From assembly GCA_030616165.1 (NCBI GenBank), contig JAUWXV010000219.1:1-6140 (forward strand): DNA of 6,140 bases. The letters are read 5' to 3'. This DNA is from a bacterium. Its GTDB lineage: Bacteria > SM23-31 > JAUVVT01. A program made the position numbers and the translations under genes. The notes under the pieces are model-generated. The model made no database searches. It worked only from the letters and a program-made list of their open reading frames with translations, and was not told where the DNA came from. Each line of letters opens with the position of its first letter. The stretch's first letter is position 1. Positions 1,475 through 5,801 of this stretch are shown one piece after another.

Positions 1475-2131
1475 ATGAGCACTTTTGTTTTAATGAAGAT
1501 TCTTGAATCGGCGCCGAGTAGGTATGACCTTGGTATCAAAATTATAACACTCGGCAGAATAAACAGGGTTTATGATAGATTAGTCGAAAGTATAAAACCG
1601 GGTTTTAATGTTCTTGACATTGGGTGCGGAACAGGAAATCTAACCATAAGAATTCTTGGAAAGGGCGCAAAAGTTGTGGGTATAGATGTTAATCCAGATA
1701 TGATTAAGATTGCAAAACAGAAGATTGAAAAGTATGGATTTCAGGATAGTGCTGAGTTTCGGGAAGAGGGAGTATCGGAACTTTCATCGGAGTCCGATTC
1801 CAGATATGATGCCGTTGTTAGTGGGCTGTGCTTTTCTGAACTCTCAGATGATGAGCGAAAATTTGCACTCAAACAAATATATCGAATTTTAAAACCAGGA
1901 GGACTTCTTCTGCTTGCTGACGAAACCCAGCCAAATAATTTCTTAAAAAAATTGCTGCACCTTATGATGAAAATCCCATTAACTATAATTACTTATCTCA
2001 TCACTCAAACGACTACAAGTTCTTTGAAAAATATCGATGATATGTTACGTTTTGCCGGGTTTAATATAAAATCTGCTGATAAAAACTGGATTGATGATTT
2101 TATTTTATTAACTGCTGAGAAACCATTTTAA
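1475..2131 (+). CDS. Class I SAM-dependent methyltransferase
   Basis: A Rossmann-fold methyltransferase of the Methyltransf_11/UbiE-like type, 218 residues. Motif I is VLDIGCGTG (46-54). The acidic end of strand 2 is in VVGIDVNPDM (67-76, Asp71). The motif IV region is YDAVVSGLCFSEL (111-123), and the post-I strand-4/5 signature is ILKPGGLLLLADE (138-150). A hydrophobic stretch around 158-178 could rest on a membrane or bind a greasy partner. The substrate cannot be read from the sequence. Only two Cys (51, 119) are present, against an ArsM-type arsenite methyltransferase. The start at 1475 has no clear Shine-Dalgarno. ATG 1493 (Met7, beginning MKILESAPSRYD) is an equally plausible start. The gene lies 38 bases before the HgcA/HgcB-like gene, so it may methylate that corrinoid protein or act on the same substrate; this is inference. 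A quinone or small-molecule methylase is the main alternative. Confidence 0.88.
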   Translation: MSTFVLMKILESAPSRYDLGIKIITLGRINRVYDRLVESIKPGFNVLDIGCGTGNLTIRILGKGAKVVGIDVNPDMIKIAKQKIEKYGFQDSAEFREEGVSELSSESDSRYDAVVSGLCFSELSDDERKFALKQIYRILKPGGLLLLADETQPNNFLKKLLHLMMKIPLTIITYLITQTTTSSLKNIDDMLRFAGFNIKSADKNWIDDFILLTAEKPF

Positions 2132-2169: not shown

Positions 2170-3306
2170 ATGTACTTTATAAAGTATATTATTGAAACTT
2201 TTTTAAGATTTCTTCCTTTTCCGAGAAAGACCGGTTTGATAAAAATTGGTTCGCCGGGTCGGAATTCTCCTGTGTTTCTGACATGCAACTTTGACTTGAC
2301 TGTTGAAAAGGTTAAGAGAGAGATTCGAGGGTTAGATGCCTATCTTCTTATAGCAAACAGCAGAGGAATAAATGTATGGTGTGGAGCCGCAGGTGGACGT
2401 TTTACAAATCATGACGTGATATCAGTTCTTAAGACCAGCGGTATAGAAAATCTAATTGAGCATCGAACGGTAATACTGCCCCAGCTCTCTGCTGTCGGTA
2501 TTCAGCCTGATATTATATATCAGAAGACAGGATGGAGAGCAGTTTTTGGTCCTGTTTATGCAAAGGATATTTTAAAATATATAAATGACGGTAATAAAAA
2601 AACAGAGTCGATGAGGAAAGTAGGTTTCGGTTTTTTTGACCGGCTTGAGGTGGCTGTTCAATGGGCTTTCCCTATATCTATAATTTCTGCGGTTATTTTA
2701 GCCTTCCTATGGCAAAAAATGATTGTTCCCTCTGTGAGTATTGCTTGGGCGGTCTCTCTAATTGTTTTTTTATCCTTTCCTCTATATTCTAGATATATGA
2801 ATCCCAAAAAAGGGAGTAAAAGGTTTGCAGTTTTTGATTTCGGGAGAGGGGGAATCATGATTATTTTTTGGGTTTTTATAATGCTCTGCATTTTATTATA
2901 TTCTTTATTACTCTCTAAGTTTGATTTAGGATTATATTTAGGGTGGGGAATAGTTTCATTAATTGTTGTTCTTATTATTTTTATTGACCTTGCTGGAAGT
3001 ACTCCTGTGTATAAAGGGGGACTGCACAAAGAAAACCTCCTGCAGGTCATTCTGGATAAAAAAAGATGCAGGGGAACAGGAGTTTGTGAGGATGTATGTC
3101 CCAGAAATTGTTTTGAAGTTGATAGAAAAAATCATATCGCCAAAATGCCCAGGATAGATTTGTGTGAACAATGCAGTGCATGTATTGTTCAGTGTCCATC
3201 TAACGCATTAAGGTTTAAAATCCTTGACGGCAGATTTATACACCCCGAAACTATCAGAAAATATAAACTGAATCTTGTTGGAAAAAGAATTGTAAATATA
3301 AAATAA
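2170..3306 (+). CDS. HgcA-HgcB-like fusion: membrane corrinoid protein with ferredoxin domain
   Basis: The 378-residue protein starts with a corrinoid-binding domain of the CdhD/HgcA type (about 25-140). It contains NSPVFLTCN, GINVWC (66-71, Cys71 the expected cobalt ligand), HRTVILPQL (98-106) and FGPVYAKDI, all in HgcA order. A charged linker leads to about four membrane helices (163-182, 186-205, 228-249, 254-274) and the HgcA-like DLAGSTPVYKGGLHKE. The C-terminal domain is ferredoxin-like, with Cys300, 306, 310 and 314, then CEQCSACIVQCP (332-343). HgcA and HgcB are normally separate and methylate Hg(II); fused relatives are known, notably in Thermococci. Oddities: the cap-helix motif reads NVWCGAAGG rather than N(V/I)WCA(A/G)GK, Thr303 sits where the second Cys of the first cluster is expected, and no Cys follows 342. 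Family membership is confident. The substrate is not known, and mercury methylation is doubtful. No clear ribosome binding site precedes ATG 2170. Confidence 0.85.
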   Translation: MYFIKYIIETFLRFLPFPRKTGLIKIGSPGRNSPVFLTCNFDLTVEKVKREIRGLDAYLLIANSRGINVWCGAAGGRFTNHDVISVLKTSGIENLIEHRTVILPQLSAVGIQPDIIYQKTGWRAVFGPVYAKDILKYINDGNKKTESMRKVGFGFFDRLEVAVQWAFPISIISAVILAFLWQKMIVPSVSIAWAVSLIVFLSFPLYSRYMNPKKGSKRFAVFDFGRGGIMIIFWVFIMLCILLYSLLLSKFDLGLYLGWGIVSLIVVLIIFIDLAGSTPVYKGGLHKENLLQVILDKKRCRGTGVCEDVCPRNCFEVDRKNHIAKMPRIDLCEQCSACIVQCPSNALRFKILDGRFIHPETIRKYKLNLVGKRIVNIK

Positions 3307-3341
3307 AATTGCCAATCTTCGGTAAATTTTACTTTGGGAAG

Positions 3342-5801
3342 ATGGAAGATAAAAATAAAAAATATGTGGATGTGGCGGTTTCAATGCCAGTAAAAGGTTT
3401 ATTCACTTATGAGGTGCCCGAAGTATTAAAAGAAAAGATTAAACCAGGATTAATGGTTTTAGTTCCTTTTAAAAATAGATTAATCACTGGATATGTATTT
3501 GGAGAATGTAAGGATAAACCAAATGTTGAAATTAAAGAGATTTCTGATGTTATAGGTGATGAACCGGTATTGACACCCGAACTTATTAAACTTGCAAAAT
3601 GGATATCTGAATACTATTTGTGCCCCCTTGGAGAGGTTTTCAGAGCTATGCTTCCAAAGGGTATTGAGAAAAAAAGCATAAAAATTGTCCATTTAAATTG
3701 TAAAAGTGTCCAGAAATCTATTTCTGGCATTGAATCATATTCAGAATATGAAAAGAAAATTCTCGAAAAATTAATGAGCAAAAAATCTTTGACTTTAAAG
3801 CAGTTGAAGAAAATCTTCGACGAAAAAATTATTGATAGAGCATTAGAACATTTTCAAAAGGATGGCATTATTGAGATTTCAAAAAAATTAATGGAGCCAA
3901 AGGTTAAAATAAAATTCGAAGATTATGTTAAATTAAAAAATGGTTTTGATTATGAGAAATTGAAGGAGAAAATAAATAAAAGAGCAAAATCACAGATTAA
4001 TATTGTCGAGAATCTGAAGAATTCTAAAGGATTAATCAAGAAGAGTGAGTTGTTGAAGAAAGCGGCTGGAAATATTAATGCATTGAAATCCCTTATTAAA
4101 AAGGAAATAGTTGAGATATTTTCAAAGGAAATATTAAGAAAGTATCCAATTGTTTTTGGGGAGGAGTATATTAAACCAGAAAAATTAACCGATGAACAGA
4201 GTCAGATAATTGATGAGATAAAGGGAGTAATTAAAGATAATCTATTTAAAGTATTTCTTCTTTATGGAGTAACAGGAAGCGGAAAGACGCAGGTTTATAT
4301 AGAATTAATTTCAGAGGTTATTAAGAAGGGGAAGGGAGTGATAATGCTTGTTCCGGAGATATCGCTTACATCACAGGCGGTAAATCGGCTGGATTCTTAT
4401 TTTGAAGGGAATGTTTCGTTTTTGCACAGTCATATGTCACCCGGGGAAAAATATGATTACTGGCGAAAAATAAGAGATGGAGACAAAAAACTTGTTGTAG
4501 GTCCCCGCTCGGCGGTTTTTGCTCCAGTTAGAAATCTTGGTCTGATAATAGTTGATGAAGAACACGATAATTCATACAAGCAGAGCGAACCCGCTCCAAG
4601 ATATAATGCAAAAGATGCGGCTATTATGAGGGGGAAAATAAATAATTGTCAGGTGATATTGGGTTCTGCTACTCCTGTTATGGAATCTTATTATAATTCT
4701 CAGATTGGAAAATATAAACTTGTAAAGTTAACTCGCAGAATAGATAATATCCCGATGCCAAAAGTGAAAATAGTAAACTTGCTCAAAGAAAAAATGGGCA
4801 ATAAGATATTTTCTGAATATTTATCCCAGAGAATAGTAGAGCGATTGAGGAGAAATGAACAGGTAATATTGCTTCAAAATAGGCGTGGATTTTCTACCTT
4901 TATTCAGTGTAGAGACTGCGGATTTATTGAGCGATGCAGGAATTGTAATATTACTTTGACATATCATAAAGATGGATACATGCTTAGATGTCATTACTGC
5001 GGTTACTCTAAAAATGCTCCTTCAAGATGTCCAAACTGTCTGGGAAAAAATGTCTATTATAGCGGTGTAGGAACACAAAGAGTTCATGGAGAGATAAAGA
5101 GGATTTTTCCAGAGGATACAGTGATTAGGATGGATGCAGATTCAACAACTAAAAAAGGCTCCCACAGTGAAATTACCGCACAATTTGAAAAGGGGCTGTT
5201 TAAGATACTTTTAGGAACACAGATGATATCAAAAGGTTTTGATTTTCCGAATGTTAATCTTGTGGGAGTTATTTCTGCTGATACCGGGCTTTTAATACCA
5301 GATTTTAGGGCAAATGAGAAAACATTCCAGTTATTAACTCAAGTGGCAGGCAGAGCAGGAAGAAGAAAAATAAGGGGAGAGGTTATTATACAAACTTATC
5401 TTCCTGAAAATTATAGCATTAAGTCGGCTGTTAAACAGGATTTCGAAGAATTTTACAAAATTGAAAGCGAGATAAGAAGTCAGTTGAATTATCCCCCTTT
5501 CGGAAGGTTGATTTTAATCGGATTTAAAGGGGAAAAAGATAAAGAGTTGATTTCTGCTTCTAACAAGTTTGCCGATATACTCAATCGGAATAAAGGAGAA
5601 TGTCAGATGTTCGGTCCAGCGCCTTCTCCATTATCAAAAATTAAGAAAAAATTTAGATGGCAGATTTTAGTCAAGGGAGAAAGAATTTATTCAAAAAAAA
5701 TGAGGAATTTAGTCGAGGATTCCTTTAGAATTTTCAGGGAAAAGTATAAATTTAAAAATGTTACTATTAATATTGATGTTGACCCTGTTAATATGATGTA
5801 A
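3342..5801 (+). CDS. priA: Primosomal protein N', replication restart helicase PriA
   Basis: A 3'-to-5' superfamily 2 DNA helicase that reloads the replisome at stalled forks. Numbered from ATG 3342 it has 819 residues, near the size of the Bacillus protein. Domains in order are the N-terminal 3'-DNA-end binding domain (YVDVAV, PVLTPELIKLAKWISEYY), a lysine-rich winged-helix and linker region (about 130-275) longer than in E. coli, Walker A GVTGSGKT (309-316), Walker B DEEH (405-408), GSATP (441-445), eight zinc-binding Cys (523, 526, 532, 535, 550, 553, 563, 566), GTQMISKGFDFPNV (625-638), QVAGRAGR (667-674), and the C-terminal domain ending DVDPVNMM. All catalytic and zinc residues are present. 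An in-frame TTG at 3309, two bases after the previous stop, adds 11 residues but lacks a ribosome binding site. ATG 3342 places the family's YVDVAV near the start and is preferred. The 35-base gap suggests cotranscription with the fusion gene. Confidence 0.95.
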   Translation: MEDKNKKYVDVAVSMPVKGLFTYEVPEVLKEKIKPGLMVLVPFKNRLITGYVFGECKDKPNVEIKEISDVIGDEPVLTPELIKLAKWISEYYLCPLGEVFRAMLPKGIEKKSIKIVHLNCKSVQKSISGIESYSEYEKKILEKLMSKKSLTLKQLKKIFDEKIIDRALEHFQKDGIIEISKKLMEPKVKIKFEDYVKLKNGFDYEKLKEKINKRAKSQINIVENLKNSKGLIKKSELLKKAAGNINALKSLIKKEIVEIFSKEILRKYPIVFGEEYIKPEKLTDEQSQIIDEIKGVIKDNLFKVFLLYGVTGSGKTQVYIELISEVIKKGKGVIMLVPEISLTSQAVNRLDSYFEGNVSFLHSHMSPGEKYDYWRKIRDGDKKLVVGPRSAVFAPVRNLGLIIVDEEHDNSYKQSEPAPRYNAKDAAIMRGKINNCQVILGSATPVMESYYNSQIGKYKLVKLTRRIDNIPMPKVKIVNLLKEKMGNKIFSEYLSQRIVERLRRNEQVILLQNRRGFSTFIQCRDCGFIERCRNCNITLTYHKDGYMLRCHYCGYSKNAPSRCPNCLGKNVYYSGVGTQRVHGEIKRIFPEDTVIRMDADSTTKKGSHSEITAQFEKGLFKILLGTQMISKGFDFPNVNLVGVISADTGLLIPDFRANEKTFQLLTQVAGRAGRRKIRGEVIIQTYLPENYSIKSAVKQDFEEFYKIESEIRSQLNYPPFGRLILIGFKGEKDKELISASNKFADILNRNKGECQMFGPAPSPLSKIKKKFRWQILVKGERIYSKKMRNLVEDSFRIFREKYKFKNVTINIDVDPVNMM

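Follow-up and report, generated by a model that had tools for sequence, protein, structure and literature searches.

The window analysed here is a 6,140-nt stretch of a bacterial contig in which an ornithine carbamoyltransferase gene (356-1267) and a PriA gene (3309-5801) enclose two closely spaced genes on the forward strand. The first of these, cpaM (1475..2131), encodes a class I SAM-dependent methyltransferase of 218 aa and ends 38 bp upstream of the second (2170..3306), a single uninterrupted ORF with an ATG start whose 378 aa product is an HgcAB-like fusion protein. No cobalamin riboswitch or other Rfam RNA was found in the 6,140 nt. Two repeats were also noted, an interspersed repeat GCGAGGAGCGAAGCGACGTGGCAATCT at 1403-1429 with four genome copies carrying up to 3 mismatches, and a palindromic intergenic repeat AGGGACAGAACAGCGTTCTGTCC at 31-53. 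Elsewhere in the host genome (G000) the palindrome recurs at about 30 sites on further contigs, several of which lie close to where a contig ends. It gave 46 matches counting both strands and a control pattern gave none, and its recurrence on so many other contigs indicates that the contig fits its genome.

The host shares its class with a genome that bears the label candidate division KSB1 (G003, locus L048), as was expected from a sequence-only reading of this DNA that had suspected a candidate-phylum bacterium. Two adjacent CFeSP-family genes lie on another of its contigs (C249), so methyl-folate chemistry is likely in the host. CobS was not found in the assembly, which is 90% complete, and corrinoid would therefore need to be salvaged. 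No canonical HgcA was found in the genome; a member of the host's family (G001) carries canonical separate hgcA and hgcB genes beside a MarR-like regulator (L012), whereas the host has the fused form only.

The N-terminal part of the fusion protein is a corrinoid-binding domain (residues 16-142; 2215..2595, +) that carries the motifs NSPV (residues 32-35), GINVWC (66-71), HRTVILPQL (98-106) and FGPVYAKD (126-133) and matches Pfam PF03599 (CdhD) over residues 16-135 with 62.7 bits against a cut-off of 24.8, the match being to the C-terminal part of the profile only (265-384 of 387). The cap-helix motif NVWC (residues 68-71; 2371..2382, +) is present in all relatives scanned, N68, V69, W70 and C71 being invariant across 51 aligned sequences, and Cys71 is the counterpart of the cobalt-ligating Cys93 of HgcA, in which the cap-helix cysteine binds cobalt as a thiolate (PMC11588087). 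Four predicted transmembrane helices (155-180, 182-201, 226-247 and 253-277; 2632..3000, +) lead to an HgcB-like dicluster ferredoxin domain (residues 286-350; 3025..3219, +) with a Fer4 match at residues 330-347 (24.7 bits, cut-off 21.1) and structural matches to ferredoxin folds at Z 8-8.7. The first cluster motif of this domain is incomplete, reading C300-x2-T303-x2-C306-x3-C310-P with an extra Cys314 (3067..3111, +), and the second, C332-x2-C335-x2-C338-x3-C342 (3163..3195, +), is complete with all four cysteines invariant in the 51 aligned sequences. In place of the Cys-rich tail of HgcB the chain ends in a conserved basic helix, IRKYKLNLVGKR (3244..3300, +; predicted helix 359-377).

An AlphaFold2 model based on 51 sequences (pLDDT 85.6, pTM 0.84) shows the corrinoid domain, four membrane helices, a ferredoxin fold and the C-terminal helix, with low confidence in the cap loop 67-75, as may be expected of a model without cofactor. 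The corrinoid domain superimposes on the CFeSP large subunit (2ycl_A) with Z 17.6 and an rmsd of 2.1 A over 125 residues, and residues 1-286 on the published HgcA model 9a0b with Z 15.5 and an rmsd of 5.2 A over 261 residues. The latter match covers residues 13-296 of 9a0b and leaves its end, the fifth helix, without a counterpart, so that on the model the fifth helix of HgcA is absent from the fusion protein and the ferredoxin stands in its place. Dropping this helix leaves an even number, which would place ferredoxin and corrinoid domain together on one side of the membrane. Five helices are kept in the model of a relative (L074) in which CpaM is fused to HgcA and the ferredoxin is a separate gene. 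Helix counts were taken from structure models throughout, hydropathy counts being too noisy.

The fusion protein is a full-length member of the NCBIfam family NF043039 (HgcAB_like), which it matches over residues 4-348 (profile 1-350 of 350, E 4e-131) at 437.8 bits against a cut-off of 285, and it has the family's architecture of an HgcA-type corrinoid domain, membrane domain and ferredoxin in one chain. Scores against canonical HgcA (NF040863, 155.9 bits), canonical HgcB (NF040864, 40.7 bits) and full-length AcsC/CdhE (NF003195, 83.1 bits) all lie under their cut-offs of 275, 99 and 306 respectively. The cap-helix cysteine within NVWC that marks canonical HgcA is present; the HgcB hallmarks of two complete CxxCxxCxxxCP motifs and of Cys73 with at least one C-terminal Cys are both absent, as Thr303 occupies the second Cys position of the first motif and no Cys follows residue 342. 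The protein is thus a member of a catalogued sister family of HgcA/HgcB and not of a new family, and both the fused protein and its association with CpaM have already been named by NCBI. The proposal of a natural HgcA-type/HgcB-type fusion in one frame is borne out by the single ORF, the full set of motifs and the NF043039 match, with the profile search passing HgcAB_like and failing both canonical models; the description of it as undescribed holds for the function and not for the protein. Frameshift, misassembly or chance fusion was considered and ruled out, since relatives with the identical architecture and 42-57% identity occur in dozens of unrelated genomes.

Fused HgcAB sequences have been used as the paralogue with which to root HgcA trees (PMC7438021). 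In our IQ-TREE phylogeny 15 canonical HgcA sequences group together with 100/100 support, and the fusion protein falls outside this clade with other fusions, a placement that the sequence-only reading had named as support for its view; the tree alignment has only 165 columns and we therefore claim this separation and not the order inside the fused group. The placement of one relative, L019, differs between methods, falling in the CpaM-linked clade in FastTree (0.904) and beside the canonical clade in IQ-TREE with weak aLRT (41.5/95), and our claim does not extend to L019 or to the root. At this locus (G045) CpaM and HgcA form one protein, the next gene is a separate HgcB that has a Cys-rich tail, and the same genome also carries a divergent fused HgcAB-like protein (L011).

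The sequence-only reading took fused forms to be known mainly from Thermococci. Thermococci are indeed among the published lineages, but so are Atribacteria, Aminicenantes, Chloroflexi, Kosmotoga, Desulfarculaceae and Methanococcoides (PMC7573106; PMC7438021), and to these our scan adds others, Desulfobacterota, Neomarinimicrobiota, Asgard archaea and Archaeoglobus among them. The scan, which was alignment-based and covered 84,980 species, recovered 56 loci from bacteria and archaea, including Desulfobacterota, Aminicenantes, Chloroflexota, Neomarinimicrobiota, Acidobacteria and Thermotogae together with Archaeoglobus, Methanohalophilus, Thermococcaceae and Heimdallarchaeota (Asgard archaea); as these were fetched with patterns from fused sequences they say little about intermediate forms. 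A single-protein scan of genome contigs returned no relatives. Spread by plasmids was considered and rejected, as no plasmid match was found at E 1e-10. Two genomes (G112 and G298) hold both canonical and CpaM-linked types, which are therefore probably not redundant.

A few loci depart from the common form. In L087 (G241) CpaM stands with a fused HgcAB in which HgcB-type cysteines and a Cys-rich tail are retained; an ArsR-type regulator lies upstream of the pair, thioredoxin-like and CcdA-like genes follow it, and this locus is a possible intermediate between the canonical and fused families. An Atribacteria gene (L065) is HgcAB-like without the ferredoxin core and retains the KFKLNLMGKR tail, reflecting either internal deletion or assembly collapse. 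The sole in-frame TGA of L085 (G061, around position 740) was considered as selenocysteine and rejected, as it stands at an aromatic column and not at a Cys; it is most likely a mutation or assembly error. In L101 (G298) scaffolding has produced an artefact in which a canonical hgcA reads on through a run of N into an ORF unrelated to it.

The strongest clue to function, and one that the sequence-only reading had not raised, is the methyltransferase partner. The cpaM product matches NF043040, named corrinoid protein-associated methyltransferase CpaM, over the full profile (1-216 of 216) at 275.7 bits against a cut-off of 180; it carries the SAM motif LDIGCGTGN and has a standard class I methyltransferase fold matching RebM, CysG(N-16) and Coq5. 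An ArsM-like conserved Cys triad is absent from CpaM, its two recurrent cysteines sitting in the SAM motif and in GLCFSEL. Across 61 loci (the 56 scanned, the 2170-3306 locus and four from sampled genomes) cpaM is the next gene upstream, in the same orientation, in 51, forms a single polypeptide with the HgcA-like protein in 5 and is missing from 5. Four of the five loci without it start about 210 bp or less from a contig end, and of the 57 loci whose upstream sequence is long enough to tell, 56 carry cpaM either immediately before the HgcA-like gene or joined to it in a single chain. The exception, L056, has the fusion, and neither the preceding 8 kb nor the rest of its assembly contains a CpaM. 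In 47 of the 49 cases where the two are separate genes, the spacing between them is -13 to +40 nt. The single polypeptides comprise four in which CpaM is fused to HgcA with HgcB separate (L019, L072, L074 and L075) and a triple CpaM-HgcA-HgcB fusion of 592 aa (L086).

The linkage also shows in 290 genomes sampled without regard to CpaM, where all seven genomes with a fusion (called where the HgcAB_like cut-off was exceeded) have CpaM and none of the 14 with canonical HgcA only does (7/7 against 0/14). A further genome with CpaM (G010) has it beside an HgcA-like protein without ferredoxin (L013); judged from sequence, the neighbours there are YHS/TRASH-like, thioredoxin-like and DUF169-like genes. 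Distances between CpaM proteins also track those between HgcA domains (r 0.88 overall, 0.77 within the core clade), no shuffle out of 2000 reaching as high a value. Neither BLAST clustering of neighbours nor a Pfam tally of 118 neighbour proteins gave a conserved third gene, and the unit is thus a compact two-gene cassette. A model of the CpaM-HgcA fusion L074 reached a pTM of only 0.66 and does not settle how CpaM docks. Among the open-licence papers searched we found none treating CpaM together with HgcA or an HgcAB-like fusion, and on that basis the linkage figures, the triple fusion and the comparison of cysteines below may be unreported.

In HgcB the C73A substitution abolishes Hg methylation and C94A/C95A lowers it by 95% (PMC7305189). 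The GVGC element and the Cys-rich tail are found at 15 of 15 canonical loci, while the 2170-3306 product and 51 of 52 other fused relatives have neither Cys73 nor the terminal Cys pair, L087 alone among the 53 fused sequences having an HgcB-like cysteine set. No Cys at all follows the second motif in 41 of the 53 and a single one does in 11, mostly a few residues from the motif and in two cases at the terminus itself. Within the first motif, 45 of 53 have lost the second Cys, a cluster ligand whose absence had likewise gone without comment in the sequence-only reading; 43 carry an extra Cys (CPRNC) and 47 the basic C-terminal signature KFKLNLMGKR. The 2170-3306 product is of this kind, with Thr303 at the lost position, Cys314, a basic tail and no tail Cys. 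Judged by its motif, the three-cysteine first cluster could possibly be 3Fe-4S or site-differentiated. The cysteine loss is not universal among CpaM-linked systems, as L087 and the separate HgcB beside L019 keep HgcB-type cysteines.

Taken together we read the cpaM and hgcAB-like cassette as a membrane-bound corrinoid methyltransferase, a sister of HgcAB, in which CpaM moves the SAM methyl group to cobalt and the acceptor is probably not mercury, and we place the probability of this reading at about 0.5. The ferredoxin domain would reduce the corrinoid to Co(I), SAM-binding CpaM would transfer a methyl group to it or re-methylate it after formation of Co(II), Cys71 in the cap helix would ligate the cobalt from below, and the methyl group would then pass to an acceptor at the membrane face. 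Family, architecture, the genetic and physical linkage of CpaM, the separate clade and the missing cysteines are results of the analysis; from them we infer which way the methyl group flows, that SAM is the donor in this family, that CpaM docks on the corrinoid domain and that the acceptor is something other than mercury. Purified canonical HgcAB transfers the SAM methyl to Co(I), giving methylcob(III)alamin with Cys ligation, and does not use methyl-THF (PMC11588087), and by analogy a tie or fusion to a class I SAM methyltransferase fits SAM as donor here. That same canonical complex is methylated by SAM without CpaM, and CpaM may therefore act on product or substrate and not on cobalt. A fuller version, in which a distinct system widely transferred among bacteria and archaea loads cobalt through CpaM, works with a three-cysteine first cluster and methylates a non-mercury metabolite or metal, is plausible but a little short of an even chance.

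As the HgcB cysteines for Hg uptake and handover are missing, the acceptor is probably not mercury: this is a sister family without mercury-handling cysteines that nearly always occurs with a SAM methyltransferase. A non-mercury substrate, proposed earlier as conjecture, stays the better guess and gains support from the missing HgcB cysteines and from Pyrococcus furiosus, which was reported to fail to methylate Hg (PMC8261052); a mercury substrate is accordingly unlikely for the core clade, the 2170-3306 product included. That the protein is a mercury methylator after all, taking Hg from small thiols instead of HgcB cysteines, would agree with the retention of Cys71 and of the overall fold, but Cys73 and the terminal Cys pair, both important in HgcB, are gone, the scores lie far under the HgcA and HgcB cut-offs and the P. 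furiosus result is negative, so we regard it as very improbable. Homology to HgcA could also point to methylation and detoxification of another metal or metalloid (As, Sb, Se, Te or similar), with CpaM and the corrinoid protein acting in sequence. ArsR-type regulators beside the divergent CpaM-linked L011/L070, L019 and L087, a permease at L011 and the YHS/TRASH-like and thioredoxin-like proteins at L013, all judged from sequence, would suit this, and canonical hgcAB is also ars-linked (PMC10349881, PMC7438021). Such neighbours do not recur around the core clade, however: of 118 neighbour proteins there, no family accounts for more than 4, ArsR is not one of the commonest, and CpaM lacks a Cys triad of the ArsM kind; we consider such a role unlikely. 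An arsenic island for the core clade finds no support in the neighbour tally, being seen in divergent members only.

Two further explanations were weighed. CpaM could act downstream or in reverse, HgcAB-like being methylated from, for example, methyl-tetrahydrofolate and CpaM methylating a second substrate with SAM or receiving the cobalt-bound methyl; the resemblance of its fold to small-molecule methyltransferases of the RebM/Coq5 kind and the adjacent CFeSP-family genes on C249 speak for this, yet HgcAB does not accept methyl-THF in vitro (PMC11588087) and CpaM fused to the corrinoid domain in 5 loci favours direct contact, which makes the arrangement rather improbable. The pair might otherwise serve corrinoid housekeeping, making or maintaining methylcobalamin or reactivating another corrinoid protein with no separate acceptor. 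A stand-alone two-gene cassette with no conserved partner speaks for this, and the reductive methylation of MetH parallels a ferredoxin plus SAM. The conserved membrane domain would be left unexplained, however, and the distribution is rare and patchy (7 of 290 genomes), and we think this improbable.

What HgcAB natively does is an old question, and SAM has only recently been shown to be its methyl donor. A direct handle on it comes from a sister family that is linked to a SAM methyltransferase, at times within one polypeptide, and is without the mercury-handling cysteines; the same family offers a route to the first half-reaction that makes no methylmercury. If the fuller version above is true, CpaM-HgcAB-like would represent a sister, perhaps the original, function from which mercury methylation derived. 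Surveys of mercury methylators ought to leave fused sequences out, and an adjoining cpaM, or a missing GVGC and Cys tail, can serve as simple markers for doing so.

Among known systems the closest are the NF043039 and NF043040 families, to which the two genes give full-length matches passing both curated cut-offs while lying adjacent in the usual order; against other members the 2170-3306 product is typical of the core clade, with Thr replacing the second Cys of the first motif. The fused HgcAB of Pyrococcus, Atribacteria, Kosmotoga and Methanococcoides is likewise a single-chain HgcA-HgcB, and the Thermococcaceae and Atribacteria relatives fall among the same fusions as our protein; a Thermococcaceae relative and others (L039, L031, L054, L055, L059 and L066) differ in keeping all four first-motif cysteines. 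Canonical HgcA and HgcB share the corrinoid domain, NVWC cap motif, membrane domain and dicluster ferredoxin, but are separate genes with five membrane helices and no CpaM nearby, the fusion differing in all three respects; their cap sequence is also distinct (NVWCAAGKGTF in canonical HgcA, NVWCGAAGGRF in the fusion), and canonical HgcB has the GVGC element and Cys-rich tail, both of which the fusion lacks. The large subunit of the CFeSP (AcsC/CdhE) of the Wood-Ljungdahl pathway has in common with the fusion the C-terminal corrinoid-binding fold (Z 17.6) and, unlike it, is without a membrane domain, a C-terminal ferredoxin and the NVWC cysteine in its cap.
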